From contig NZ_RHLN01000019.1 in the NCBI RefSeq assembly GCF_004121075.1, positions 1-64,000 on the forward strand: DNA of 64,000 nt. Direction: 5' to 3'. This document shows, piece by piece, positions 712 to 59,683 of this stretch; positions within the stretch are counted from its first letter, which is position 1; each line of letters begins with the position of its first letter. This DNA is from Lutibacter sp. HS1-25. GTDB lineage: Bacteria > Bacteroidota > Bacteroidia > Flavobacteriales > Flavobacteriaceae. The notes below the pieces were generated by a model, which had not been told where the DNA came from, searched no databases, and saw only the letters and a program-made list of their open reading frames with translations. The position numbers were made by a program, and so were the translations under genes.

Positions 712-1296
712 TTAATTAACTATTATTACCGTTAAACTCATTGCTCCCTGAGCTCCAACAACCAAACATTGCTCAATATCTGCAGTTTTTGATGGACCTG
801 AAAGAAACAATCCAAAACTACGTTCTCTATTTGCTATTATTTCAAAAGCTTTGTGCATATTTAAACACAAACTATCTTTTGACAAAACAAGTACCAAATC
901 ATTGGTTATAAAAGGCAAGACTCGAACTGGAAATTGATTTTCAGAAATCCAAACTGAGCCGTTTTCTGCAATTCCTATTTCACCTTTTATAATTGCCAAG
1001 TCAATATTTTCAAGTGAATGTGGTTTTGTTTCTTTTGAAATGGTAATATTTCCTAGGTTTGATTCTGATAACTGAGCTACAATTTTGTTTGCATTTGGAT
1101 ACAGCTTTTGAATTTCTGCATCTAAATTTTCAACATTATTTAATTCAATTAGTTTTCCACCTACCAATTGTACATTTCCTTTAAAGGTGTCTAACAAATC
1201 AATATCTTCAAAAAACAATTGGACATCAATTTTTGGTAACTCCACCAATGCTGGCTTGTTTTGTTGTATCGATTTTAATATGGATTCTCTACTCAT
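712..1296 (-). CDS. lutC: LutC-type LUD-domain lactate utilization protein
   Basis: Third protein of the LutABC iron-sulfur complex, which oxidises L-lactate to pyruvate in the cytoplasm. The protein is about 194 residues and consists of one LUD (YkgG/LutC) domain, with the conserved ENGSVWISEN stretch in the middle and a glycine-rich C-terminal part (VGAQGAMSLTVIIV). I chose the ATG at 1296 because the protein then begins MSRESILKSIQQNKP, the usual start of this family. A start at 1323 is open but would overlap lutB by 35 bases rather than 8. It is the last gene of lutA-lutB-lutC. LutC alone has no known catalytic cofactor. The family is clear; lactate as substrate is inferred from the three-gene set. 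Confidence 0.88.
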   Translation of the reverse strand: MSRESILKSIQQNKPALVELPKIDVQLFFEDIDLLDTFKGNVQLVGGKLIELNNVENLDAEIQKLYPNANKIVAQLSESNLGNITISKETKPHSLENIDLAIIKGEIGIAENGSVWISENQFPVRVLPFITNDLVLVLSKDSLCLNMHKAFEIIANRERSFGLFLSGPSKTADIEQCLVVGAQGAMSLTVIIVN

Positions 1297-2656
1297 TTTT
1301 TTTTCTGTTTTTATACCACTCATTAAAATTCTGCTTACCTACTTCTGGCAATTCACGTTCTTTACCCCAAGCATTTAATTTTGAATACACCATAAATCGA
1401 GGTGCGTGTTTCAACATAAATCTAGCTGAACCTCCCAGTAAATTAAATAATTTAGGTCTTGCCATTAACCAACCAGTAGTTTTTAGTATTACTTTTTTAA
1501 CAAATGGTTGTTTTACATCTTTTACAATTAATTGTCTCCATTTATATAACTGCTCGTGAATGTTGATTTTTACAGGACAAACATTGGAACACGAGCCACA
1601 TAAAGTGGATGCAAAAGGCAATGAACTGTGTTTTGTTAAATCTTTTCCCGGTGAAAGTATAGAACCAATTGGTCCTGGAATGGTAGCATCATAACTATGA
1701 CCTCCACTTCGTCTGTAAATTGGACAAGTATTCATACAAGCACCACAACGAATACAACTTAATGAAGATCTAAAATCCTCACGACTTAACTGCTCTGTTC
1801 TGCCATTATCAACAATTACAATGTGCATTTCTGCTCCAGGTGCTGGCGTATTAAAGTGAGACGAATACGTTGTTATGGGTTGGCCGGTTGCACTACGAGC
1901 AAGTAAACGTAAAAAAATACCTAAATGTGCTTCCTTAGGAATTATTTTTTCTATTCCCATACACGCAATATGCACAGGTGCTAAATGTGCACCCATATCT
2001 GCGTTCCCTTCATTGGTACAAACTACAAAACCACCTGTATCTGCTACTGCAAAATTTACACCTGTAATAGCTGCATCAGCCTGTAAAAACTTATTTCTTA
2101 AATGTTTTCTTGCTTCATTTGTTAAATATTGAGGATCTCCACCACTTGGTTTGGTACCTAAATGTTCTTGAAACAATTCATCAACTTCTTCTTTTGTTTT
2201 ATGAATCGCTGGCAATACAATATGGCTTGGTGGTTCTTGTGCAATTTGAACAATATACTCACCCAAATCGGTATCAACAACTTCTAAACCTTTGCTTTCT
2301 AAAAAAGGGTTTAAATGACACTCTTCAGTAAGCATAGATTTACTTTTTACTATGTTTTTAGCTCCTTTTTCGGCTAAAATTTTATAAATAATCTTATTGT
2401 GTTCTTCTGCACTTGAAGCCCAATGTACTTTTATACCATTTTTTTGAGCATTTGCTTCAAACTCCATAAGGTAATTATCTAAGTTTGAAAGTACATTTGC
2501 TTTAATTCCAGATGCTACATTTCGTAGTTCTTCCCAGCCTTTAATTTTATGAGCTGCGTTATCTCTTTTTTCTCTAACATACCACAAAGCTTTATCGTGC
2601 CAGTTTACTTTAGCTTCATTTTTGTTGAATATTGTTGCTTTTTCAGAATGACTCAT
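1289..2656 (-). CDS. lutB: LutB-type iron-sulfur lactate oxidation protein
   Basis: Central subunit of the LutABC lactate oxidation complex. The 455 residues comprise an N-terminal LUD domain (about 60-290) and a two-cluster ferredoxin-like part. The first [4Fe-4S] set is CIRCGACMNTCP near residue 300 and the second is CGSCSNVCP near residue 350. The length and domain order are those of LutB/YkgF proteins. It starts 2 bp after lutA stops and overlaps the 5' end of lutC, so the three genes are certainly cotranscribed and probably translationally coupled. Nothing is missing from the cluster motifs. The electron acceptor is not shown by the sequence. Confidence 0.93.
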   Translation of the reverse strand: MSHSEKATIFNKNEAKVNWHDKALWYVREKRDNAAHKIKGWEELRNVASGIKANVLSNLDNYLMEFEANAQKNGIKVHWASSAEEHNKIIYKILAEKGAKNIVKSKSMLTEECHLNPFLESKGLEVVDTDLGEYIVQIAQEPPSHIVLPAIHKTKEEVDELFQEHLGTKPSGGDPQYLTNEARKHLRNKFLQADAAITGVNFAVADTGGFVVCTNEGNADMGAHLAPVHIACMGIEKIIPKEAHLGIFLRLLARSATGQPITTYSSHFNTPAPGAEMHIVIVDNGRTEQLSREDFRSSLSCIRCGACMNTCPIYRRSGGHSYDATIPGPIGSILSPGKDLTKHSSLPFASTLCGSCSNVCPVKINIHEQLYKWRQLIVKDVKQPFVKKVILKTTGWLMARPKLFNLLGGSARFMLKHAPRFMVYSKLNAWGKERELPEVGKQNFNEWYKNRKKNE

Positions 2657-2658
2657 AA

Positions 2659-3396
2659 CTATAAACTATTGTTTAAAATTTCAGCAATATGCATTACACG
2701 TATTGGCTGTTTATTTCTATTTAACAATCCTTCTAAATGCATTAAACACGAATGATCTGCACCTGTAATAACTTCTACCCCATTGTCTAAATGATCTTGA
2801 ATACGATCTTTCCCCATTTTTACTGAAATTGCTTCTTCAAAAACAGAAAAAGTACCACCAAAACCACAACATTCATCTTTTCTGTTTAAAGACATTAGTT
2901 CTAATCCTTTTACATTGTTTAGCAAATCTTCTTCAGTGGAATAATGTGCATCCATCCTTTCAGAACAAGAACCTAATTTTAAACCACGCAATCCGTGACA
3001 GCTTTTATGTAAACCAACTTTGTAAGGAAATGATGCGCCAATATCCGTTTTCCCTAAAACTTTCACTATAAACTCACATAATTCATAAGCATTGTTTCTA
3101 ACTCTAATTACTTCAGGTGTTTGCTCTAAAATGTCAAAATGATGTTTTACATGGTAGATACAACTTCCTGATGGGCCTACAATATAATCGTACTCCTTAA
3201 AGTTTTCTACAAATAATTGACAGGCTCCTTTTGAATCATCCTCGTATCCAGAATTCCCCAAAGGTTGTCCACAACAAGTTTGACTTGAAGGATAATAAAC
3301 CTCAACCCCTAATTTTTCTAATAATTCCAACGTAGCAATACCAACTTTTGGATATAATTGATTGATATAGCACGGTATAAATAGACCTACTTTCAT
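2659..3396 (-). CDS. lutA: LutA-type (Fe-S)-binding oxidoreductase subunit
   Basis: First gene of the lut operon. The 245-residue protein carries two CCG domains, the cysteine-rich repeats shared with heterodisulfide reductase and glycolate oxidase subunits: TCCGQP at residues 40-45 and ECCGFGGTF near residue 175. Two further Cys positions (C9 in FIPCY, and SGSCIYH) complete the pattern. This is the standard length and layout of LutA/YkgE. Only 71 bp separate it from the GntR-type regulator upstream and I see no clear -7 box in that gap, so regulator and lut genes may share a transcript. Confidence 0.93.
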   Translation of the reverse strand: MKVGLFIPCYINQLYPKVGIATLELLEKLGVEVYYPSSQTCCGQPLGNSGYEDDSKGACQLFVENFKEYDYIVGPSGSCIYHVKHHFDILEQTPEVIRVRNNAYELCEFIVKVLGKTDIGASFPYKVGLHKSCHGLRGLKLGSCSERMDAHYSTEEDLLNNVKGLELMSLNRKDECCGFGGTFSVFEEAISVKMGKDRIQDHLDNGVEVITGADHSCLMHLEGLLNRNKQPIRVMHIAEILNNSL

Positions 3397-3467
3397 TTTT
3401 TTAGTTATTCATTGTTATTATGAATTATTTTAATTCATTTAATTTTATCTTCACTTTATAAAAAATT

Positions 3468-4475
3468 TTATAAGGATTCTCTTTTTATTAATGATGTTGG
3501 TATATAACATTGCATTTTTTCACCCTCATTTAAATTTATAAATTCGGCAGCTTTCATCCCCATAGCTTTAAAATCTGTTGAAATCACAGAAACACCTTTA
3601 TAAACAAATTTTTTCATAGGAGTTTCATTATAAGACAAATAACCAACATCAACTCCTGGTTCAAATCCTTTCTCTCTACATTGCTCTAAAAATGCTGCTA
3701 AAATTCTATCATTTACACTTACGTATCCAACATTTTTTTCAATGTTTAAATCCTTTACTTTTGTTACTACTTTGTAATTAAAATTGAATTTATCTCCAAA
3801 TTTCTTAAAATAATTAACCGCATCTTTTGGATGCGTTGTATAAGAGGGATAAATAAATTTAATTTTTTTATATTTTCTAAATAAATCCTGCGCTTCTATT
3901 AGGCAATTATAAAATGATTTTCCAAAATCTTGAAAAACAAAATTATTGTCAGGTGAAGCGTGTATATTCCAGTCTAACAATAATAATTTATCTTTATTAA
4001 TTTTTGAAATAACAGCAGGCACCTCTTTATGATCCATATTCATAACAATGTATTTGTAATATTTTCCTTCACTGTTATTTATAACCATTTTAAAATCTTC
4101 GATATTATAATGATGAAACTGTAAATCTATAATCGTATTTTCGGGTAAATTACCGATAAAAGAATCGTACAAGACCTCCTTATAAGCTTTAAAAGTATCT
4201 AACAACAATAAAACTTTTCGAACATTACTAGCAATATGATACCCTTTATTTGGCACAGAAGCTATAACACCATCTTTTTTTAATTTTGTATATCCCTTAA
4301 AAACAGTATCCCTAGATAATCCTTGTGCTTTACTCATACTAGTTACAGATGGTAATAAATTACCTACCAATAACTCCTTTTTTGCAATTGCATTTACAAT
4401 TGCATTTACAAGCTGTTGATATTTAGGAATATCACTATTATCAATAATATTCAGTAAAACTTCATTTTTTCTCAC
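3468..4475 (-). CDS. GntR-family regulator with LacI-like sugar-sensing domain
   Basis: Transcription factor of 335 residues. A GntR winged helix (about 14-82, with GNLLPSVTSMSKAQGLSRDT) is followed by a periplasmic-binding-protein/LacI-like effector domain (about 88-330), the architecture of AraR and of Bacteroidota sugar regulators. The start is GTG at 4475, with an in-frame TAA a few codons upstream and no ATG between. It sits directly before lutABC, with a carbohydrate gene block on its other side. Known relatives respond to sugars or sugar phosphates, so its effector could be a deoxysugar or uronate intermediate; that is inference. It is the only sugar-type regulator in the window and therefore a candidate reader of the shared motif upstream of uxaC, ThuA and GH2. 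Confidence 0.9.
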   Translation of the reverse strand: MRKNEVLLNIIDNSDIPKYQQLVNAIVNAIAKKELLVGNLLPSVTSMSKAQGLSRDTVFKGYTKLKKDGVIASVPNKGYHIASNVRKVLLLLDTFKAYKEVLYDSFIGNLPENTIIDLQFHHYNIEDFKMVINNSEGKYYKYIVMNMDHKEVPAVISKINKDKLLLLDWNIHASPDNNFVFQDFGKSFYNCLIEAQDLFRKYKKIKFIYPSYTTHPKDAVNYFKKFGDKFNFNYKVVTKVKDLNIEKNVGYVSVNDRILAAFLEQCREKGFEPGVDVGYLSYNETPMKKFVYKGVSVISTDFKAMGMKAAEFINLNEGEKMQCYIPTSLIKRESL

Positions 4476-4769: not shown

Positions 4770-6182
4770 TTATTTAAAATTGAAATATTCTTTTGCGTTG
4801 TAATAACAAATGTCCTGTATCATTCTTCCAAGAAAATCAAGATCATAAGGTAACAATCCATTATTCACATCGTTTGCAATTAAATTACACAATATTCTTC
4901 TGAAATATTCGTGTCTAGGGAAAGATAAAAAGCTTCTTGAATCGGTTAACATTCCAACAAATCGACTTAATAAACCCATGTTAGACAAGGTATTTAATTG
5001 TTTTTCCATACCATTTTTTTGATCTAAAAACCACCAAGCTGACCCCCACTGCATTTTACCAGGAATACCACTAGAATTAAAATTACCCATCATAGTAGCA
5101 AAAACTTCATTATCGGCTGGATTTAAATTATAGGTAATTGTTTTTGCTAACTTTTTATCTGAATCAAGTATATTAAAAAATTTAGACATTGCTTCTGCTA
5201 TTGAGTAATCGCCAATAGAATCGCAACCTGCATCAGAACCTAACTGTTCTTGTAAACGACAGTTGTTATTTCTAATAGCACCTAAATGATATTGTTGAAC
5301 CCAATCCTTTTCATGATATTTCTTTCCCAAATACAACATCAAACTTGATCTGTATTTCATTATTTCTACAGGTAAAAGTGTTTCACCTTTTAAATTTTTA
5401 TCAAAAATTACTGTAATTTCATCAATAGTAAAATCTTCTTTTGAAATTTCGCCACCAACACCAAAATCGGACAATCGGCATCCATTTTCATGAAAATAAT
5501 CAATACGACTATCTATTGCTTTTAAAAAATCAGCATAGTTATGAATTGGAAAAGCAACAGCTGCAGCTAATTTTTTTAGATAATTTAAAAATTTATTCTG
5601 ACCAATAAAAAATAGTTCATCTGATCTAAATGTTGGGTAAACTTTTGTATAAAAACCAGCTTCAACAATCTTTTTATGACATAGAAGATCATCTGTTGGA
5701 TCGTCTGTAGTGCAGATAATTTCAACATTCATATCTTCTAATAATTGAGCTGGTGTTTTTGTAGCCAAAACTGCATTCGCTTTGGTGTAAATTTCTTCAG
5801 CAGAACTTGATTGCAAAATCTCATCTATATCAAAATAGCGCTTTAACTCCAATTGTGTCCAGTGAAACAAAGGATTTCTTAATGTGTGTGGAACAGTTTC
5901 TGCCCATTTTTGGAATCTCTTTTCTAATGATGCTGAACCTGTAATAAATTCTTCATCAATTCCATTTGCACGCATTCCACGCCATTTGTAATGATCTCCA
6001 GAAAGCCAAGCTTTTGTAATGTTTTCAATAGGCTTATTTTCAGCTATTTGCTTTGCAGAGAGGTGATTATGATAATCAATAATAGGCATATCTTTTGCAT
6101 ACTCATAATACAATATTTCAGCCTCTTTAGAATTTAGTAGAAAATTGTGTTTAATAAATTTTTTCTCTGCAATTTGCCTCAT
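4770..6182 (-). CDS. uxaC: Uronate (glucuronate/galacturonate) isomerase
   Basis: Converts D-glucuronate to D-fructuronate and D-galacturonate to D-tagaturonate, the first cytoplasmic step of uronate catabolism. The 470-residue protein is full length for UxaC, an amidohydrolase-fold enzyme. The metal-binding HxH is in DYHNHLSA (H38, H40) and conserved blocks such as WLSGDHYKWRGMRANG and FRSDELFF are present. It has its own promoter region upstream with the motif shared with two other genes. The next pathway genes are missing: only a wreck of kdgK follows, and no fructuronate or tagaturonate reductase is in the window. If the pathway works, those functions must be elsewhere. Confidence 0.96.
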   Translation of the reverse strand: MRQIAEKKFIKHNFLLNSKEAEILYYEYAKDMPIIDYHNHLSAKQIAENKPIENITKAWLSGDHYKWRGMRANGIDEEFITGSASLEKRFQKWAETVPHTLRNPLFHWTQLELKRYFDIDEILQSSSAEEIYTKANAVLATKTPAQLLEDMNVEIICTTDDPTDDLLCHKKIVEAGFYTKVYPTFRSDELFFIGQNKFLNYLKKLAAAVAFPIHNYADFLKAIDSRIDYFHENGCRLSDFGVGGEISKEDFTIDEITVIFDKNLKGETLLPVEIMKYRSSLMLYLGKKYHEKDWVQQYHLGAIRNNNCRLQEQLGSDAGCDSIGDYSIAEAMSKFFNILDSDKKLAKTITYNLNPADNEVFATMMGNFNSSGIPGKMQWGSAWWFLDQKNGMEKQLNTLSNMGLLSRFVGMLTDSRSFLSFPRHEYFRRILCNLIANDVNNGLLPYDLDFLGRMIQDICYYNAKEYFNFK

Positions 6183-6272: not shown

Positions 6273-6336
6273 CAAAACTAATATTCAAATCTAAAAATAG
6301 TGTCCTGTACTATCATGATAACAGTTCGTAACAGTC
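6273..6336 (-). promoter_or_regulatory. uxaC promoter with shared 10-bp-phased operator motif
   Basis: The minus strand has an exact -7 box TAGTTTTG (6280 to 6273). Exactly 20 nt upstream of it begins the motif that reads TGTCCTGTACTATCATG on the plus strand from 6301. The motif occupies the place of a -33 box, for which there is no TTTG. Farther upstream CTGTTA occurs twice, 10 bp apart (minus strand, 6336 to 6321). The same arrangement is found before the ThuA-DUF1080 and GH2 genes, which suggests a common activator. Confidence 0.6.
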
Positions 6337-6342
6337 ATTTAT

Positions 6343-8175
6343 TTATTTGTCCAACTTTTTTAAATAAACAACCCAATCCAAATTAACCTCTAAAGGAGCG
6401 CCTTCTAACTTCACAATTGAATTGGCTTTCACTTTTTTTAATTTTCCTTTTTGAAGATCACCACCTTTTCTTGGGTTGAACCACTGAATTGAAAACTCAC
6501 CTTCAACACCTTTTAAATCTAACGTTCCATTTCCATTTTTAAGATAAACAATGTAAAATTCAGTTGGTTTGGCTAAACAATAATCACCTTCTAAAACCAA
6601 CTCATCATGATTGACTGTTTCCCAAAAAGAAATGTTATTTTGTTTAAAAAAGGCTAACACATAACTACATTGATCCCAAAATAAATCACGACTAGCATAA
6701 TCTTGGCAAGTTAAATCTGAATGCGGATGTTGGTATCCAAAATACCATTCTGTACCCCAAGCACCTGCCATAAAAGCACCCCACAAACCATTTTTACGTG
6801 CATTATTATGCAACGGATCTTCATCATCGGTTAATAAAGCATGTTTTGCATCACCAGGCTCATCAACAGCAACAGCCCATTGTTTACCCGCATTTTTAGA
6901 TTCGTTTATCCACTTTAAAGCTTCACTATGAACCCTGTTAAAATCTGCTTTATTGGTTTGTACAGATGCTCCTGTAATTTTACTATCTGCCCCTAAAACA
7001 TCATAAAAAGGTGCCCCATTATGAATTACAATATGATGCTTATAAGCATCCGTTTTATTCAAATAAGCTGCTGCAGCCAAACGTTGATCCGTATTCATTG
7101 GTAAAGTTTCATGTTTTTTAATCCACTCTCCGTTTTCTTCACCAATATTCCAGTTTAAAGCCAAATGATGTCCAAAACGCGCAATAATTTCTCGGTAATA
7201 CAACATTGTATTTGCACCAATCCCACCATTGTCTAACAATCCTTGATTTTCAGATTCAGACAATTTAAAATGAAGGAACATTCCCATTTTATCTGCATAA
7301 TCAAAAATAATTTCCCATTGATCTAATTTTGAAATATCATAACGGTCATAGGTATCATAATTGATAAATGGAAACACATTTTGATCATCACCTTCAATAT
7401 TAAATGTTAGAAACGAAAAAACATTCATTCCTTTTGAAGCCAAGTAATTAATTGCGCCAATCATAGCTTTACCCTTGCCATTTTGCCAAGTTGGATCGCC
7501 ATTGTTCCAATGTTTTAAATGTGCTTCCCAAGTTTTAACTAAATTATCTTTATGACCATCATTTTTAAAATCTCCATCAAAATCGGCGTAAGAAAGAAAA
7601 TTTTCAGGAGCATCGGGTCCCACTTTTAAAAAATACTCACCTGTTTCAGCAAATTTTAAATAACGCTCACCAACATATTGCAATCTTCCTTTTGCTCTAA
7701 AATCCCTTCCACTTTTATCTGTTTTTTCAATAAAAAAAGTACCCGTTTCACCATCCATAAATTCAGCTGAATCACTAGAACTATTGGTATAACTTAAGGC
7801 TGCAAATTTCCCTTTTCTAAAATCAACTTTATAATTCCAATCACCAATTTCATCGGGCGAAAAATGCACTTTCCATTTGTTTCCTTTGGTTGCTGAAGTT
7901 TCACCTGCGTTTCCATCAGCAGCAAAATAACCTGGAATTAAATAGGTTTTTCCTGTTGCATTGTGCGTAAATAAAACATTTAATCTATAATTTAAAAACG
8001 GATTGTAATTTTCGGTTTCTGAAGTTTCAGGACCTTCAAATGTCAAAGTAACTTTATGCCATTTTTTTAATTCTCCTGTAATTTTAGAATTGTTTTTTTC
8101 TTGTGCCACTAAAAAATGAACACTTGTTAAAAAAACTAAAAAAGTGAAGTAAAATGTTTGTTTATATGATTTCAT
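6343..8175 (-). CDS. Secreted DUF5060-domain glycoside hydrolase-like protein
   Basis: Exported protein of 610 residues. A signal peptide (about 1-24, ending LVAQ) is followed by an Ig-like DUF5060 domain (about 32-115, with WHKVTLTFEGPETSE) and a barrel-like region (about 160-510). The C-terminal beta domain (about 525-605) contains IQWFNPRKGG, as in the collagen-binding-like module that ends many of these proteins. Acidic candidates for catalysis are in NWNIGEENGEW and AVDEPGDAKH, but I cannot assign catalytic residues. Such proteins are common in polysaccharide utilisation loci of marine Bacteroidota. It lies 86 bp downstream of the ThuA-DUF1080 gene without a recognisable promoter between, so the two are probably cotranscribed. 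Substrate unknown. Confidence 0.8.
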   Translation of the reverse strand: MKSYKQTFYFTFLVFLTSVHFLVAQEKNNSKITGELKKWHKVTLTFEGPETSETENYNPFLNYRLNVLFTHNATGKTYLIPGYFAADGNAGETSATKGNKWKVHFSPDEIGDWNYKVDFRKGKFAALSYTNSSSDSAEFMDGETGTFFIEKTDKSGRDFRAKGRLQYVGERYLKFAETGEYFLKVGPDAPENFLSYADFDGDFKNDGHKDNLVKTWEAHLKHWNNGDPTWQNGKGKAMIGAINYLASKGMNVFSFLTFNIEGDDQNVFPFINYDTYDRYDISKLDQWEIIFDYADKMGMFLHFKLSESENQGLLDNGGIGANTMLYYREIIARFGHHLALNWNIGEENGEWIKKHETLPMNTDQRLAAAAYLNKTDAYKHHIVIHNGAPFYDVLGADSKITGASVQTNKADFNRVHSEALKWINESKNAGKQWAVAVDEPGDAKHALLTDDEDPLHNNARKNGLWGAFMAGAWGTEWYFGYQHPHSDLTCQDYASRDLFWDQCSYVLAFFKQNNISFWETVNHDELVLEGDYCLAKPTEFYIVYLKNGNGTLDLKGVEGEFSIQWFNPRKGGDLQKGKLKKVKANSIVKLEGAPLEVNLDWVVYLKKLDK

Positions 8176-8261
8176 TTTTGAAAAATTTATTAAAATAATT
8201 TAAATCTTAATTCTGATTTTTTGAAATAACAAATAGTTACCATTTCAAAAAAAGCCAAATA

Positions 8262-9827
8262 TTACTTTAAATACTTGTTGTATTTACCCGGAATTTTATC
8301 AATTGACTTGATTTCAATATTTTTATAAAACACTTCAGCTGCTTCAGACTGAATTTGAATTCTACCTTTTTGAAGTGGCACAATTTCTTTATCCAAATTT
8401 TGAATCTGAGAATTGAATAAAGCCATTACAACTTTGCCATTTACAATATGAAAACTGGTTCCTTCAAAACAAATTAACTCTAAAGTGTTCCATTCACCGT
8501 GCGGATTTTCATTATCAAAACCTTTATTGCAATGGTTTGAAGGGTACTTTGTTAAACTAGAAAACTGATTTAAAGTACCACCTTTTACATAATCAAACTG
8601 TTTTTCTCCTTTTTTCTTTTCTGAAGGAATCTGAATTAATGTAGTTGATAAAGCATAATAATCACCAACATTGCCTTCTTCAACCTGAAATTCTTGAGAT
8701 TGCATCCAAACATTCCAAAATGTAGTATAAGGTCCTGTACAATGGTATAAAATACCACTGTCTCTATTTTTTGTTAAACGTGGCTCCCAAATTTTTTCTC
8801 CCCATTTAAATTGTAATTTTAAATGGTAATTTTCATATTCATTTTTTGAAGTTAATGAACCATAAATTTCTCCTGAAATATGAAGCACTTGCTCACCATC
8901 AATAGTTTGAAAAGTAAAAACATTTTTAGGATCGTTATTTAACCCAAGCGGCGCTGAATTTTTTCCATCACTATTTGGATCTACATTCTCCAAGCCTTGT
9001 ACTGTTTTGTGCGGCGCCCCCATAAAAACATCCCAATTTAAATAAGGATCACCTTCTAATAAATTTGTCCATTTTTTTGACAATCCTGGTGTTTCTTTGA
9101 CTCCTGCAGCCCATAAAACAGCACCTTTAATATGGTTGTAATAGCGATTTTCTTGATAAATTTCATTTGTATGTCCTAAGCCCGTATAAAAAACACGGCC
9201 ACCATTATAAATATGATACCAACTATTTGGATGGTTATCGGTATTCATTTGTTTTCCTTCATACGTATTTTCATCAATAGATGTTAATACATTAACATGT
9301 TTCCCTACTGGTTTTAAAAAATTATACCATTCATCTTTAAAAACTTCTTTTTCATTCCAGCCATCAATAGCCGGATGCTGGCAAGTAGTATTTACATTTA
9401 AAGTAGCTGTTTGCACTTTAGGATGGTCTTTAAATGTTGCTCCAACCATTTCAGTAAACCACTGCCATTCTTTTTCTGTATCAGAAGCGGCGTGGATACC
9501 TACAAAACCTTTTCCTCTGGCAAAATAATTTTTTAAGGCATTTTTATTTTTATCACTAAAAATATTTCCCGATGTATTTAAAAACACAATAACATCAAAT
9601 GTGGCTAGTTTAGCTATGTTAAAAACAGTTGAATCTTCTGAAAATTCCATTTTCCAATGATTTTCAGCACCCATTTTGCTCAAAAAATCTATTCCTGCAG
9701 GTATCGATTTGTGTCGAAATGCATTCGTTTTTGAAAATACAAGTACATTTAAATTTGTTGATTGTGCTTCTAAATTTTGAATAATTAAAAAAGTAAGCAG
9801 TATAATTGCGATTTTTTTTAAAGCCAT
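8262..9827 (-). CDS. Secreted ThuA-like plus DUF1080 fusion protein
   Basis: Exported two-domain protein of 521 residues: signal peptide (1-21, NLEAQS), a ThuA-like glutamine-amidotransferase-fold domain (about 25-245, with GFVGIHAASDTE and WYHIYNGGRVFYTGLGH), and a C-terminal DUF1080 lectin/hydrolase-like beta-sandwich (about 275-515, with DSGILYHCTGP). DUF1080 proteins include 3-keto-glycoside hydrolases, and ThuA-type proteins act in 3-keto-disaccharide metabolism, so oxidised-sugar processing is a reasonable guess. The fusion is frequent in Bacteroidota. It is probably the first gene of a two-gene unit with the DUF5060 protein, and its promoter bears the shared motif. Confidence 0.85.
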   Translation of the reverse strand: MALKKIAIILLTFLIIQNLEAQSTNLNVLVFSKTNAFRHKSIPAGIDFLSKMGAENHWKMEFSEDSTVFNIAKLATFDVIVFLNTSGNIFSDKNKNALKNYFARGKGFVGIHAASDTEKEWQWFTEMVGATFKDHPKVQTATLNVNTTCQHPAIDGWNEKEVFKDEWYNFLKPVGKHVNVLTSIDENTYEGKQMNTDNHPNSWYHIYNGGRVFYTGLGHTNEIYQENRYYNHIKGAVLWAAGVKETPGLSKKWTNLLEGDPYLNWDVFMGAPHKTVQGLENVDPNSDGKNSAPLGLNNDPKNVFTFQTIDGEQVLHISGEIYGSLTSKNEYENYHLKLQFKWGEKIWEPRLTKNRDSGILYHCTGPYTTFWNVWMQSQEFQVEEGNVGDYYALSTTLIQIPSEKKKGEKQFDYVKGGTLNQFSSLTKYPSNHCNKGFDNENPHGEWNTLELICFEGTSFHIVNGKVVMALFNSQIQNLDKEIVPLQKGRIQIQSEAAEVFYKNIEIKSIDKIPGKYNKYLK

Positions 9828-9876
9828 TTAACCTTATATTATTAAATTATGTTAATTATAAATTGATTGAATATAA

Positions 9877-9921
9877 CAATTATAAGTAAACGCTTTTAAA
9901 AACTTGTCCTGTACTGTCCTG
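9877..9921 (-). promoter_or_regulatory. ThuA-DUF1080 promoter with shared operator motif
   Basis: The minus strand has a -7-like TATAATTG (9884 to 9877, one mismatch). Exactly 20 nt upstream begins the best copy of the shared motif, read on the plus strand from 9905 as TGTCCTGTAC followed by TGTCCTGCGA. These are two direct repeats of TGTCCTG exactly 10 bp apart. No -33 TTTG is present. Confidence 0.6.
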
Positions 9922-10013
9922 CGATGAAAACTGAATTTAAATTGCCTCTATTTATTTTAACCATCTCAAAATCTGCTACCAAGAAACACTTTATTTTTCA
10001 TGTTTAAATCAAA

Positions 10014-11006
10014 TCATTTAAACTCGAACATCTCAATAGTATCCAATTCAGGTTTGCCACCTCTGCTTCCACTTCCGGCAGCTATAAAAATCTTTTTTTC
10101 ATAAACAATTGCTTGCGTACCGTGTCTACCCGTTTTTAAAGTGTCTAATGGTCTCCATGTTTCATTTTTTATATTATAAGCATCAACATTGTTATGTGCA
10201 GATTTTTGAGACATACTTTCACCACCAATAACTATTAAATCATTTTCTAAAAATACTGCGGAAGCCCCCGCACGCATAGTAGGTATGTTATTTTTTGAAG
10301 GCAATGTAGTCCAAGTATTTGATTTTAAATTGTAAACATCAACCTCTGCAATTGTTAAGTCGAAGGTTTGGTTGGTAGCAAAAGAAGAATTTCTACCGCC
10401 AGCGCAATAAATTTCATTTCCGTTTATAGCTGCTGCAAAATGATCTCTAGATCTTGGAGCATTGGCTAAAACTGTCCATTTATTTGTTTTAAAATTATAC
10501 GCATCAACCCATGGAACATGCGTACTATTATGCCCATCAACAATACCACTTATAACTATTGCAACATTGCCTTTTACTACAATTCCCGAAGAACCTCTTC
10601 TTCTTGCTTCAGGAATTTCAGCACCTTCTTGCCAAGCATCTAGCTTTGGGTTATACACCAAAATATTTTTCAATGGTGTTTCATAAGGGTATTTTCCGGT
10701 CATTGCTCCAATGACATATATTTTTCCTTTATAAGAAATCCCTTGAAAATGATGAATTTCTATTGGTGGTGCTAAGCCTTCAGACCAAGTTTTTGTTTTT
10801 GGATTAAAGATTGATATTGATTTTATGCCTCTTCCACCTAATAAATAAAACAATCCATCAACCTCCGTAAAACTACATTCGTGTCTTGCAATGGCATTGT
10901 TAGCACATTCCATCGTGTGCCATTCGCCTGTTTTAGTTGTTTCTTGTGCAAAAGAAATTTGAGTTGTTATTAGTAAATAGGTGAAAAAAATCAATAATCG
11001 TTTCAT
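10014..11006 (-). CDS. Secreted Kelch-repeat beta-propeller protein
   Basis: Exported protein of 330 residues: signal peptide (1-20, ISFAQ) followed by about six Kelch blades over residues 35-325. Each blade has the VYNPKLDAWQEG / YNLKSNTWTTLP type of repeat and GG or GA turns (LLGGRG, VIGAMTG, CAGGRNS, VIGGES, AAGSGS). Kelch proteins of this size beside glycoside hydrolases are often called mutarotases or sugar-binding proteins, but no catalytic residue is recognisable. It lies between GH2 and ThuA-DUF1080 in the same orientation. A terminator precedes it, so it has its own promoter, which I could not locate. The shared motif is absent here. Confidence 0.82.
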   Translation of the reverse strand: MKRLLIFFTYLLITTQISFAQETTKTGEWHTMECANNAIARHECSFTEVDGLFYLLGGRGIKSISIFNPKTKTWSEGLAPPIEIHHFQGISYKGKIYVIGAMTGKYPYETPLKNILVYNPKLDAWQEGAEIPEARRRGSSGIVVKGNVAIVISGIVDGHNSTHVPWVDAYNFKTNKWTVLANAPRSRDHFAAAINGNEIYCAGGRNSSFATNQTFDLTIAEVDVYNLKSNTWTTLPSKNNIPTMRAGASAVFLENDLIVIGGESMSQKSAHNNVDAYNIKNETWRPLDTLKTGRHGTQAIVYEKKIFIAAGSGSRGGKPELDTIEMFEFK

Positions 11007-11127
11007 ATTTTGGACTTTATTAGTTTTCTTTCAGTTTAAATAATGGTGGATATTGTAACTTTTCTAAGTGGCTTAAATTTCAATTAATGTACGCACTTTT
11101 CATAAAACTTTTAATATTTAACAAAAA

Positions 11128-11170
11128 AAAAGATTCTATACAATAGTTAAAACTACCTATAGAATCTTTT
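11128..11170 (-). terminator. Terminator after the GH2 gene
   Basis: AAAAGATTCTATA (11128-11140) pairs perfectly with TATAGAATCTTTT (11158-11170). A long A-run at 11123-11131 gives the U-tract for minus-strand transcripts. It lies 20 bp beyond the GH2 stop. Confidence 0.85.
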
Positions 11171-11189
11171 CTTCAAACTTAATTAATTG

Positions 11190-14186
11190 TTATTTTTTCT
11201 TACCAATTACAGTATACATTCTGCATTCTTTTGGAATTTCTCCATCGCTATTTCCAGCCATTACAATACTTTCTCCTGCTTTTGCTGTTCTTTTAAAAAT
11301 AGACATTGTTACACCTCCAATAACAAGATCATCACCTGTATCAACATAATCTTTCAATAAAAACTCAGGTCGTGAAACACGATCATCATGCAACACATAA
11401 ATATCCATATCTGCACCAGCAATAAATTGCAACAGGTCTCTAGCCCAATAACCTTTGTCTGAATCTGGAGTTCTAACATATTCAGCACCTCTTAGATATG
11501 AAGGAATTACCGTATAATTCATATCCAAATCTGTATACGCTTTTTTACCCCAATCCATCGTAGTTCTTAACATTGCTTTCGCGTCACCAGTATAACTAAA
11601 TTTAGAAAACAAGTCACTTCTATTATCATCACCCGGATCGTATGCTTCCATTTTAGGCGTATAAATTGGTAAAGGTTCTTCTACTAAAGCTACATCAAAT
11701 ACTTGAGGAAGTTCCGTTGTCAGCCCATTTTCGATAGCTATTGGCAAAGATGTAATTTCTACACTTGCTGAAGTTAAACCATCTCTTGAAGCTGTAATTT
11801 TAACAGTTCCTGCTTCTAATAAAGAACGTACAGCAACTCTATTGATTCCACATTCAGTATCTAAATATAAATTATTGGTACTTTTTTCTTTACCACTATT
11901 GTAACCACCTCTCCATATTCCAGGACCAGAAATTGTAAAGTCTACGCGATCTTTATCTAACGGACATCTATCTCCATTTTTATCTACAACTTCAAAATCT
12001 ATAAGTACAATATCAGAACCATCAGCTCTCCATCCTTTTGGACCTGTCATTGTTGTTAATTTAATAGCTACTGGTTCTCCAACTGTTTTTTTAGTTTGAG
12101 TAACTAGTAATTTACCATCAACATACCCTTCAACTTTAATTTCACCAGCTTCAAAAGCAACATCTGAAAATTCATATACATAGCCGTTTTTAGCAGCGCT
12201 ATTTGTACCAATTAATTTATTGTTGATGTATAATTTTACTTCAGCACAATTTGATATTACAAACATATCTTTTTTTGTTCCTTCAGCATAATTCCAATGA
12301 CCAATAACATGAACCTGAGGCTCTGGTCTCCACATAGATTTTACTGCATAAAATGCTTCTTTAGGCAATCTTACCGCATCAACTTCACCACTTGCTCTTG
12401 TAACTTCTGTAGGATTACGACCACCATGAGGACCATCAGTAAACACCCAATTTGCACCACCACTATGGTATGATTTTCTACCCATTTTATTCCACCAATG
12501 ATCTGCTTGTCGAACGGCAAATTCTTCAGAACCAATTTGGTATGTATTTTTACTTATATTAGGATGCGTCCAAAAATTATCATCAGGTGTTGATTTATCC
12601 CAGGCACGTCTTGGTGCTTCATCACGCAAATATTCACTTTCAATAATTGGCAAACTTGCAAATTCACGTTGCCAACCTTCAGTACCAACTTCAATGGTAA
12701 CATAATTTTCAGATTCCGTTTTTGTATCTGAACGTCTATTACCCATCAATCTTTTTCCGTTTGGATCAAAAGTATTGATAATATCTAAAATCTCTTCGTA
12801 ATGTTCAGGAGTCTCAGCCCAGTTACCACCTTCCCAAATAAAAATAGATGGGTGATTTCTATAATAAACAATCATATCACGAAAAGCTTCCATACGAATT
12901 TTCCATGTTTCACCTTCATCTTGAGATTCTCCAGCTACACCAGGCATTAAGGTTACAAAACCATATTTATCACCCATTGCAATTTCTGCAGGCGATCCCG
13001 CACAATGTCCCCAACGAATAAAATTTCCTCCTGCTTCATCCATTAATTGGTATGTATAATCACGTAACCAATCTGGTAATGCTGCTCCTAAACCAGCCCA
13101 CGTATTTGTAGGTTTTTGACCCCATCCGTGTAGTTTTGCATATTCTCCGTTGTTATGAAATCCAGTATCTTTATTGAATTCGAAACTTCTAATTCCAAGT
13201 GGTGTTTCATAAGTATCCAATACTGTATTGCCTTCTTTTAAGATTGAGACAACCTTGTACATATACGGATTGCGTGTATACCAAAGATTTGGGTTTAAAA
13301 CACTTGTTGTAGTCTCAAACGTGAATTGTTGTCCTGCTTTAATTGTTTCAGATGCTTTTGCCGTTTGAACAACATTTCCATCTTTATCAACAATTACAGC
13401 TTCAAAAGTTACATTTTTATCTTCGTTATATTCGTTTTTAACTTCAGCCTTTACAGTAACATCTGCACTTTTTTCACTCACATTATCAGCAAAAACATAC
13501 GTTCCAACAGTTTTTAAATTGTCGTATAGTGGCAATGTAATATGCAACGGATCCATAGTGTGTAAAAATACATTTCTGTAAATACCACCGTGTGTTGGAT
13601 GCCAGTGTTCGTGGTTCCAAACAAGTGGATCGTTATCTCTAAAATCATCACTATTACGATCGTTATTAACTTTTACGGCAATAACATTTTCTTTATCTCC
13701 AAAATTTAGATATGGTGTTAAATCATAACCAAAAGGAATAAATCCTGTTTGATTTTGACCTAAATATTTTCCATTTACATAAACATCTGCAATTTGACGA
13801 ACCGACTCGAACTCAATATATACTTTTTTACCAGCATCGGCTGCAGGTAGTTTAAAATGTTTACGATACCAAACAGTACCTCTCCATTGATTTTTTTCTC
13901 CTTTATGACCTCCTAAACTGAAATCGTCAAAAGTATCAACATCGTTAAAAGTATGAGGTGCACTAACCGTACTCCATGAAGTATCATCATAATTAAATAC
14001 TTCTGCATTTTCAGGATTTTCTTGAATAAATTTCCAATCCGGATTAAAATTGTATTTGGTTCTGTTTCCTTGGGTAATTTCTTTTAAAACTTGACTATTT
14101 GATTGACAGGAAATCAACAAGAAACCCGCAAAAACAATCATTAAAAATTTGTTTCCAAATCTTGATAAAGTTCTTTTATTCATCAT
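11190..14186 (-). CDS. Glycoside hydrolase family 2-like lipoprotein, atypical active site
   Basis: Lipoprotein of 998 residues: lipobox LLISC with Cys27, GH2 sugar-binding domain (about 45-215, with DDTSWSTVSAPHTFND and VWYRKHF), GH2 immunoglobulin domain (about 220-330), TIM barrel (about 335-640) and C-terminal DUF4982-like and Ig-like domains. It should sit on the cell surface or in the periplasm. At the acid/base site the usual GNE is WEGGNW (N455, W456), so the expected Glu is Trp. The nucleophile region PIIESEY (E516, E518) is kept. I recall a GH2 subfamily with EGGNQ at the same place, so this may be a subfamily trait and not a defect. Substrate unknown; beta-galactosidase annotations would be unsafe. 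Its promoter carries the shared motif. Confidence 0.88.
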   Translation of the reverse strand: MMNKRTLSRFGNKFLMIVFAGFLLISCQSNSQVLKEITQGNRTKYNFNPDWKFIQENPENAEVFNYDDTSWSTVSAPHTFNDVDTFDDFSLGGHKGEKNQWRGTVWYRKHFKLPAADAGKKVYIEFESVRQIADVYVNGKYLGQNQTGFIPFGYDLTPYLNFGDKENVIAVKVNNDRNSDDFRDNDPLVWNHEHWHPTHGGIYRNVFLHTMDPLHITLPLYDNLKTVGTYVFADNVSEKSADVTVKAEVKNEYNEDKNVTFEAVIVDKDGNVVQTAKASETIKAGQQFTFETTTSVLNPNLWYTRNPYMYKVVSILKEGNTVLDTYETPLGIRSFEFNKDTGFHNNGEYAKLHGWGQKPTNTWAGLGAALPDWLRDYTYQLMDEAGGNFIRWGHCAGSPAEIAMGDKYGFVTLMPGVAGESQDEGETWKIRMEAFRDMIVYYRNHPSIFIWEGGNWAETPEHYEEILDIINTFDPNGKRLMGNRRSDTKTESENYVTIEVGTEGWQREFASLPIIESEYLRDEAPRRAWDKSTPDDNFWTHPNISKNTYQIGSEEFAVRQADHWWNKMGRKSYHSGGANWVFTDGPHGGRNPTEVTRASGEVDAVRLPKEAFYAVKSMWRPEPQVHVIGHWNYAEGTKKDMFVISNCAEVKLYINNKLIGTNSAAKNGYVYEFSDVAFEAGEIKVEGYVDGKLLVTQTKKTVGEPVAIKLTTMTGPKGWRADGSDIVLIDFEVVDKNGDRCPLDKDRVDFTISGPGIWRGGYNSGKEKSTNNLYLDTECGINRVAVRSLLEAGTVKITASRDGLTSASVEITSLPIAIENGLTTELPQVFDVALVEEPLPIYTPKMEAYDPGDDNRSDLFSKFSYTGDAKAMLRTTMDWGKKAYTDLDMNYTVIPSYLRGAEYVRTPDSDKGYWARDLLQFIAGADMDIYVLHDDRVSRPEFLLKDYVDTGDDLVIGGVTMSIFKRTAKAGESIVMAGNSDGEIPKECRMYTVIGKKK

Positions 14187-14262
14187 CTAATTAATTATGT
14201 TTGTTATTTTTATAAGGTTTATTTCTTAAAAATTAATTTTGAAGTATAATTCTTAACAAATG

Positions 14263-14308
14263 CTAATTTAAGTTTTGATTAAAATTATACTATCCTGTAC
14301 CGTACTGC
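14263..14308 (-). promoter_or_regulatory. GH2 promoter with shared operator motif
   Basis: The -7-like box TAAATTAG (minus strand, 14270 to 14263, one mismatch) is followed 20 nt upstream by the motif TATCCTGTAC plus CGTACTGCAA (plus strand from 14291). The spacing is identical to that at uxaC and ThuA-DUF1080. The 480-bp gap 14187-14665 holds this promoter and one terminator; I see no gene in it. Confidence 0.55.
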
Positions 14309-58552: not shown

Positions 58553-59683
58553 TTACGAAAACATATCTTTTACTTTTTCAAAAAAGGACTTATCTAATTT
58601 TGAAGGACTAGGTTCAAAATTTTTGTCATCTTTCATGTTTTCAAAAAATGCTTTTTGTTCTTTTGATAATTCTTGCGGTGTCCAAACATTTATATGAACT
58701 AATAAATCTCCTGTACCATAATGATCTATGCTTGGTAGACCTTTTCCTCTCAAACGTAAAATTTTACCAGACTGCGTACCTGGTTCTATTTTAATTTTAA
58801 CTTTACCAGAAACTGTGTCAATATTTTTACTTTCACCTAAAACAGCTTCAGAAAAATTAATATATAAGTCGTAATGTAAATTCGTTCCTTCACGCTTTAA
58901 AGTATCATGCGCTACTTCTTCAACAACCACAATTAAATCACCATCAACACCATTGTTTCCTGGTGCAGCATTACCTTTACCATTAACTTTTAACTGTACG
59001 CCTTCTGTAACTCCTGCAGGAATTTTAATTGAAACTGTTTCTTCTTTTTGAACCAAACCACTATCATCTGCATTTTTTGGTTTTTTATCTAAAACCTCTC
59101 CTGCTCCGTGACAAGTTGGACAAGTTGAAGCAGACTGCATTCGCCCTAAAATAGTATTGGTAATTCTCATTACCTGACCAGAACCGTTACAATTTGTACA
59201 AGTTTTATAAGTTGCACCTTCGGCCATTACTTTTCTACGCACCTTTACCTTCTTTTCAACGCCATTTGCAATTTCTTCTAAGGTTAATTTTACTCTAATA
59301 CGTAAATTACTTCCTTTTACACGTGCTCTACCTCTGGCTCCTCCGCCAAAGCCGCCAAAGCCACCACCAAAACCGCCACCGCCAAAAATATCACCAAACT
59401 GACTGAATATGTCATCCATATTCATACCGCCACCGCCAAAGCCGCCACCGCCATGACCACCCTCAAAGGCAGCATGTCCATATTGGTCGTAACGTGCTTT
59501 TTTATTTTCGTCGCTTAGAATCTCATATGCTTCAGCTGCTTTTTTAAATTTTTCTTCAGCAGCCTTATCTCCAGGGTTTTTATCAGGATGGTATTTAATT
59601 GCCATTTGACGATACCCTTTTTTTATTTCAGCAGGTGTTGCATTTTTTGAAACACCTAATATTTCGTAAAAATCTTCTTTCAT
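58553..59683 (-). CDS. dnaJ: Chaperone DnaJ, with only two zinc-finger motifs
   Basis: Hsp40 co-chaperone for DnaK, 376 residues. J domain (about 4-68, [10 protein letters not shown] with HPD), a Gly/Phe-rich linker (about 75-120), Cys-rich region and C-terminal substrate domains. Standard DnaJ has four CxxCxGxG repeats; I see two, CTNCNGSG and CPTCHGAG, about 24 residues apart, enough for one zinc site. From memory other flavobacterial DnaJ proteins look similar. It starts 7 bp after grpE, so grpE-dnaJ is an operon; dnaK is not in the window. Confidence 0.96.

Follow-up and report, generated by a model that had tools for sequence, protein, structure and literature searches.

A phased direct-repeat motif at fixed distance from the -7-like box of rhamnose and ulvan gene promoters and its predicted GntR-type regulator in Flavobacteriaceae

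The window analyzed here is a 64,000-nt stretch of the genome of Lutibacter sp. HS1-25 (contig NZ_RHLN01000019.1, positions 1 to 64,000), whose minus strand carries three exact copies of a motif, CANNANRGTACAGGAYA, one each ahead of the genes for a uronate isomerase (uxaC), a ThuA-DUF1080 protein and a family 2 glycoside hydrolase (GH2), with a TAnnTTTG-like box exactly 20 nt from every copy (Table 1). An original prediction, made from the letters of the window, had given the coordinates and the spacing of these sites exactly, and Pfam agrees with it on the genes behind them, which were identified as UxaC, ThuA with 3keto-disac_hyd (formerly DUF1080) and GH2. When up to one mismatch was allowed, CANNANRGTACAGGAYA had four matches in the window (three of them exact) vs 0.06 expected from shuffles, the fourth, at 58707 (one mismatch), lying inside an open frame without a -7-like box; the composite of motif, 20 nt and box (up to two mismatches) had three matches vs 0.00 in shuffles. 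We found that the sites belong to a genome-wide, not a local, regulon of rhamnose, uronate, xylose and ulvan-degradation genes, and we consider it likely that the three sites in the window are operators of one rhamnose-responsive GntR-type activator controlling ulvan use.

Table 1. Predicted sites, promoter boxes and neighboring genes in the window (E-values of sites refer to the sequence model R1, described in the text)
Feature	Coordinates	Strand	Details
Regulator site 1 (predicted)	6301..6317	-	CATGATAGTACAGGACA, upstream of uxaC; R1 E 3.4e-7
-7-like box of site 1	6273..6280	-	TAGTTTTG, 20 nt from site 1
Regulator site 2 (predicted)	9905..9921	-	CAGGACAGTACAGGACA, upstream of ThuA-DUF1080; R1 E 7.0e-6
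-7-like box of site 2	9877..9884	-	TATAATTG, 20 nt from site 2
Regulator site 3 (predicted)	14291..14307	-	CAGTACGGTACAGGATA, upstream of GH2; R1 E 1.3e-4
-7-like box of site 3	14263..14270	-	TAAATTAG, 20 nt from site 3
Uronate isomerase gene uxaC (site 1 target, predicted)	4770..6182	-	PF02614 E 5.6e-194
Gene for ThuA + DUF1080 protein (site 2 target, predicted)	8262..9827	-	PF06283, PF06439
Glycoside hydrolase of family GH2 (site 3 target, predicted)	11190..14186	-	PF02837, PF00703, PF02836
DUF5060 / collagen-binding-2 protein, perhaps co-transcribed behind ThuA-DUF1080	6343..8175	-	PF16586, PF12904; same strand, 86-nt gap to ThuA-DUF1080
GntR/PBP-type paralog heading lutABC-like genes	3468..4475	-	31% identical to predicted regulator

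In the whole genome of the host (4.18 Mb; G000 in our numbering), exact matches to CANNANRGTACAGGAYA numbered 8 vs 0 for the reversed control, and matches with one mismatch 20 vs 2. The host genome and its relatives together yielded 34 pattern matches (L001-L034), 23 of them outside open frames (counted here and below from 100 aa upward) and 11 inside. By eye, a box-like sequence stood at 20 nt from 21 of the 23 non-coding matches vs 1 of the 11 coding ones (L027), the non-coding exceptions being L006, with its box at 19 nt, and the boxless L025. The 21 non-coding matches with a box served as the training set for a 53-position sequence model (R1) and for a position weight matrix (PWM) of the 17-mer; L006, L025 and the 11 coding matches were left out. 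By construction, the training sites match both models and R1 favors the 20-nt spacing. In G000, R1 identified 21 promoters at E <= 0.0017, all of which are non-coding and point toward a gene. At E <= 1 it counted 32 matches; of the 26 listed, 24 were examined individually (the matches on contigs C6 and C17 were left out, that on C6 lying inside a 136-aa frame), and 22 of the 24 were intergenic while 2 fell in frames (E 0.049 and 0.18). One of the 21 promoters, that on contig C27, has a weak motif-type site (score 17.7) placed 634 nt before xylR, the next start found. The original prediction had read the motif as an activator site defining a local regulon: it is a specific site in an activator-like geometry, but it recurs at 21 promoters genome-wide and across the family.

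The genes behind the G000 sites serve rhamnose use (L-rhamnose isomerase, RhaT, lactaldehyde reductase and GH78 rhamnosidases), polysaccharide breakdown (a sulfatase-GH78 fusion, more sulfatases, GH2, GH3 and GH43) and uronate and xylose catabolism (uxaC, an SDR-uxuA-kduI operon and an xylR-xylB-xylA operon), so that the clustering at uronate and deoxysugar (rhamnose) genes that had been foreseen was indeed observed. The clusters around these sites also encode a PL25 ulvan lyase (match to 5uam, E 7.7e-125), a protein with the ulvan-lyase trefoil domain PF24208, GH78, GH106 and GH39, and the matching cluster of G024, a genome of the same genus, encodes a rhamnose-glucuronate lyase (match to 7esk, E 8.7e-51). 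The gene set for ulvan use (lyases, rhamnosidases and sulfatases) is therefore present among the regulon clusters, with the lyases inside the clusters and some of them not directly behind a site. Xylose and iduronate are among the sugars of ulvan. The polymer is also rich in rhamnose and glucuronate (PMC12858550). A serpin gene (L039:1283-2734, + strand; PF00079, E 2.2e-100) was also found within a rhamnose/ulvan cluster.

The protein whose distribution follows that of the motif is a GntR/Peripla_BP_3 protein, encoded in G000 on contig C27 (L114:10317-11363), outside the window. Its gene adjoins xylose, not rhamnose, genes in G000, where the motif is still present at the rhamnose genes; the G024 counterpart (L049:18704-19759), likewise GntR/Peripla_BP_3, lies beside the rhamnose operon. 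Strong motif clusters occur in 4 of 37 same-genus genomes (G000, G011, G019 and G024), the best E-value in the other 33 being 0.00149 or worse, and full-length orthologs of the G024 protein (72-83% identity) are found in G000, G011 and G019 and in no other genome of the genus (n = 37). A draw of 299 genomes of the family, from which the window's own was removed (n = 298), contained 53 with protein and motif, 10 with the protein only, 2 with the motif only and 233 with neither (Fisher p 7.6e-46). In four of the protein-only genomes (G060, G138, G179 and G294), inspection revealed sites scoring at least 19 beside the gene that the fast filter had missed. Motif and predicted regulator thus occur together in many genera of Flavobacteriaceae, and in G040, a genome of another family, four diverged sites, still with the 20-nt spacing, surround an ortholog of 57% identity.

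We assembled 80 loci around the predicted regulator gene, from about 26 named genera. In 70 of the 80, a site in divergent orientation is found no more than 1.5 kb upstream of this gene (median 289 nt). Three other genes, rhaB, rhaD and rhaI, also reach 70 loci or more; judged by their first 70 residues, the 45 most widespread gene clusters included no other recognizable regulator. The L049 ortholog has an N-terminal GntR winged helix (PF00392, E 7.4e-11, above the cut-off) and a C-terminal Peripla_BP_3 domain (PF13377, 38.9 bits vs a cut-off of 26.5). The DNA-binding domain of the predicted regulator matches that of AraR (4egy, E 5.6e-7), the arabinose repressor of Bacillus subtilis, which has a GntR plus LacI-type architecture. 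A structure model of the G000 protein (pLDDT 88) had CcpA, LacI, TreR and PurR as its best matches, with TM-scores of about 0.5-0.6.

The nearest candidate in the original prediction was the GntR/LacI-type protein encoded in the window at 3468-4475, which is of the right family and proved to be a paralog of the C27 protein that tracks the motif, with a Peripla_BP_3 match (25.4 bits) just below the cut-off. That this paralog regulates the three promoters is very improbable, although it adjoins uxaC and shares the helix letters SRDTV with the predicted regulator. It is 31-33% identical to the tracking protein and is followed by lutA-, lutB- and lutC-like genes for lactate use (window 712-4475, minus strand). 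On its distribution we rejected it as the main regulator, since G011 and G019 have motif clusters and no gene of its type among their matches to the predicted regulator at E <= 1e-10, the others of which head xylose operons or lie elsewhere. A related GntR/PBP and lut pair is present in G024 (C4, L243). In 14-15 of the 80 loci, similar lut genes are no more than 10 kb away from the rhamnose regulator, as would fit the formation of lactate from rhamnose. Genes of the GalR, XylR, lut and HTCS types were recognized partly by eye.

Two further genes recur in these loci. An FMN-dependent dehydrogenase of the lactate type is present in 40 of the 80. The other is a 461-aa protein, by eye a membrane protein (L163:384-1769, minus strand; N-terminus ..GGEFERTPVPxSKLKGWKSF..), with similar proteins in other loci of L150-L229; its kind is encoded in 39 of the 80 and follows 12 of the 122 sites described below. 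It has no Pfam family and no convincing solved relative, and its NCBIfam match to cytosine permease (E 5.2e-11) is weak and falls far short of the cut-off; it is a candidate uncharacterized transporter for rhamnose or lactate.

Next, we analyzed the anatomy of the site across the 80 loci. The 17-mer PWM gave 153 matches at scores of at least 15.5 (overlaps counted) vs 6 for the reversed PWM. Once sites below 18, overlapping a better site or too near a locus end were excluded, 122 non-overlapping sites remained, spread over 76 loci, with the consensus CRGKAYAGTACAGGATAS. The expectation that hits in related genomes would lie upstream of genes was borne out, with 121 of the 122 outside open frames at a median of 60.5 nt from the next start codon. 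The next gene is the class II aldolase-dehydrogenase fusion of the rhamnose operon (fusion by Pfam) for 57 sites, RhaT for 15 and SusC for 9 (names are those of the best BLAST match to our own 24-protein panel; 32 of the 122 targets were without one). At least four of the five TAnnTTT positions were present at exactly 20 nt in 116 of the 122 sites (next best spacing, 41), and in 111 of 117 without L150 and L151, from genomes that gave training sites; the sites were picked by the 17-mer alone, with the box not used, and the TA..TTTG columns still appear.

Over the 122 sites, the scores of the unit CAGnAYR at offsets 0, 5 and 10 are 5.27, 5.27 and 5.98 of 6, which gives a period of 5 bp; the site consists of three phased 5-bp repeats, CAGNA-YAGTA-CAGGA-YA. 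It is thus more than the direct repeat of 10-bp period that had been described. Longer repeat arrays occur in L021, L202 and L218. In a group of Flavobacterium loci (e.g., L211), AAGGA stands in place of the first unit, and either 20 or 21 nt could be taken as the distance to the box. Two of the longer arrays (L202:13216-13252 and L218:18774-18810) have four CAGGAYA units that recur every 10 bp, the last of them followed at 20 nt by a TAGTTTTA box. The consensus CRGKAYAGTACAGGATA is non-palindromic, unlike the palindrome TATGTTnTAnAACATA that is the Crp motif of Bacteroides sugar regulons (PMC3878776). A TTG starting 18-26 nt ahead of the box is present in 2 of 116 sites, which fits the proposal that the motif replaces the -33 TTTG, but the count proves nothing by itself: this stretch is occupied by the motif, and a peak at -33 is likewise absent from control boxes (TTG in 61 of 309 over nine positions, at most 12 at one).

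An activator of the AraC type or a hybrid two-component system (HTCS) binding these sites is scarcely credible, even though the placement of the motif, and the presence of two boxes phased by 10 bp within its 17 bp, are reminiscent of an AraC monomer site. The rhamnose regulator of Bacteroides thetaiotaomicron is indeed AraC-type (PMC3878776). The AraC alternative raised by the original prediction failed on distribution for the two nearby genes, since L050 is absent from G011, which has a motif cluster, and L041 is present in 1 of the 4 genomes with clusters (both at E <= 1e-30), so that neither qualifies as a general regulator. HTCS motifs comprise two direct-repeat half-sites about 21 bp apart (PMC3878776), whereas no second half-site lies about 21 bp upstream here: the 45 nt upstream of the 17-mer held no second conserved block, only A/T richness and weak adjoining columns. 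No AraC or HTCS gene was recognized among the 45 commonest gene clusters of the 80 loci, a survey that did not extend to a genome-wide search for HTCS or further AraC genes.

Paralogs of the regulator use related letters in other places. The XylR-type paralogs have a direct-repeat site of their own, CGGAACAGAACAGTA and variants, between the -7-like box and the start codon. A pattern search located it directly ahead of the start codon in 8 of 12 loci, and inspection by eye added three more; the exception is G037. It lies upstream of xylR in L230, L232, L234, L235 and L245, with variants in L114, L244 and L110, which suggests that these paralogs may repress themselves through it. The xylR genes of G024 and G019 have both own-type and motif-type sites. 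As owners of the motif itself, the XylR paralogs were rejected: in six ortholog-less genomes (G013, G020, G022, G028, G032 and G036), no site scoring at least 15 lies upstream of xylR, the G028 piece holding one boxless site of 17.8 away from that region. Beside galactokinase-like genes, the GalR-type paralogs are accompanied by ACCAGTACCTACTAGT and variants (five sequences, by eye), an inverted CAGTA-NN-TACTG shortly before the start codon (L236-L240, by eye). These sites support CAGNA as the unit probably read by the GntR/PBP protein family.

Because the motif fills the -33 place at a rigid distance from a housekeeping-type box, its geometry is that of an activator contacting RNA polymerase, and a site over -33/-35 at fixed distance from the box is the class II layout, to which the 116 sites at 20 nt conform. 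The box matches the promoter consensus TAnnTTTG of Flavobacterium psychrophilum, mapped at -12 to -5 (PMC9723704). We infer binding, activation and effector from sequence, as follows. The regulator would be cytoplasmic and combine a winged helix of the GntR type with a sugar-binding domain of the LacI type; it would bind an inducer, most likely L-rhamnose or an early catabolite, judging by gene content. With inducer bound, it would sit on the three phased 5-bp repeats, at about -49 to -33 if the box is -12 to -5, and contact RNA polymerase, making up for the missing -33 element, so that promoter opening by the housekeeping sigma factor could take place 20 nt downstream, at the TAnnTTTG box. 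Rhamnose transport and catabolism, ulvan-cutting enzymes, and uronate and xylose catabolism would thereby be joined in one regulon; the sites, in short, are probably docking points of a single rhamnose-sensing protein that turns on genes for the digestion of ulvan, a green-seaweed polymer, in this marine bacterium.

The same regulator could act on the same sites as a repressor, blocking the -33 region until sugar releases it, which we regard as unlikely. A plain repressor tolerates varied positions, and 116 of 122 sites across about 26 genera hold to 20 nt, with three of the six exceptions being tandem arrays. Repressors do occur among GntR-type sugar regulators, however: the GntR regulator of alginate use in Zobellia galactanivorans is reportedly one, going by a title alone, and the own site of the XylR-type paralogs occupies a classical repressor position. 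NanR is another (PMC8012715).

Several further observations weigh against a single GntR-type activator as the reader of the motif. Co-occurrence alone does not name a regulator, because the genes of one pathway co-occur whatever regulates them, and for six of the protein-only genomes (G079, G096, G166, G273, G275 and G276) the absence of the motif is the verdict of the fast filter. Two genomes, G177 (E 7.0e-4) and G304 (E 5.0e-4), have a borderline motif and no ortholog at E <= 1e-70. Among 60 relatives, seven exact 17-mers occur across six ortholog-less genomes; six of these are coding, and one, in G037, is non-coding and without a box at 20 nt. The 21 training sites of the two models come from three of the genomes analyzed, and every one of them has its box at 20 nt; six of the 122 sites lack a box at that distance; L154 (with only 933 nt of upstream sequence) and L201 have no site; and L181 and L186 have weak sites only. 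Two LacI-type genes and one HTCS-like gene were seen by eye near sites L018 and L020, and the paralog in the window may cross-bind, because it shares SRDTV. The G037 copy is a perfect site, CAGAACAGTACAGGATA, at L242:16649-16665 (G037 C5:50648), 36 nt before a 661-aa gene and without a -7-like box at 20 nt, in a genome that holds only a 35% paralog of the predicted regulator.

A broader proposition, which we hold in even balance, is that one cytoplasmic monosaccharide sensor, a GntR/LacI-hybrid activator on three 5-bp direct repeats standing in for the -33 element, commands the whole ulvan programme in many Flavobacteriaceae, from lyases, sulfatases, rhamnosidases and SusC pairs to rhamnose, uronate and xylose catabolism, and that its xylose and galactose paralogs reuse CAGNA, laid out as direct or inverted repeats, at repressor positions, the role of the fold being switched by the layout and place of the unit.

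The architecture of the protein and direct-repeat operators of GntR proteins are already known. In the open-licence PMC literature (subscription papers and regulon databases lying outside the search), we found no description of the regulator, its operator or its ulvan-wide regulon. None of the matches listed, as represented by titles and the beginnings of abstracts, named a GntR regulator of rhamnose or ulvan use in Flavobacteriaceae, and no title among the matches listed for the letters GTACAGGACA/GTACAGGATA concerned such regulation; an earlier description elsewhere may nevertheless exist. In the degradation of algal polysaccharides, Flavobacteriaceae have been called the major participant (PMC12323373). 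It has been described as uncommon for bacteria to control their use of a polysaccharide through a monosaccharide sensor (PMC12125979), and genetic tools from other bacteria work poorly in this group (PMC9723704). For about 26 named genera, the present analysis names a predicted regulator of rhamnose and ulvan use together with its operator and promoter geometry, and the site is a marker by which the regulon can be searched for in genomes. The fixed grammar from site to promoter would help build inducible promoters for this group, and GntR proteins on direct repeats in an activator-like position would widen the known roles of the family.

Among known systems, AraR shares the two-domain architecture of the predicted regulator and differs in being a repressor with palindromic operators, as opposed to direct repeats in an activator-like position here. 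The Zobellia regulator resembles ours in serving algal polysaccharide use in a marine flavobacterium and, by its title, differs in sugar and sign (alginate, repressor). The original prediction had observed that GntR sites are usually palindromic, which is true yet not decisive, since direct-repeat motifs have been reported for FarR, NagQ and NanR and predicted for GabR, TauR and PdxR (PMC4494728). NanR of Escherichia coli, a GntR protein of the FadR subfamily (PMC4494728), likewise occupies direct repeats that are short and three in number, (GGTATA)3, but is a repressor with 6-bp units and an operator downstream of the polymerase site (PMC8012715), and FadR, also of the GntR family, is an activator at fabA and fabB (PMC3460868). 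RhaR and RhaS of E. coli are activators and regulate rhamnose genes, as the predicted regulator would, but belong to the unrelated AraC family (PMC12858550), as does RhaR of B. thetaiotaomicron, whose reconstructed regulon is a single operon (PMC3878776). FucR and ManR of the latter species differ in serving other sugars, in a bacterium whose rhamnose genes are under the AraC-type RhaR; they are nevertheless, as here, GntR-family regulators of monosaccharide pathways in Bacteroidota, and the predicted ManR regulon, with its extracellular mannosidases and SusC/D, resembles the one described here (PMC3878776).

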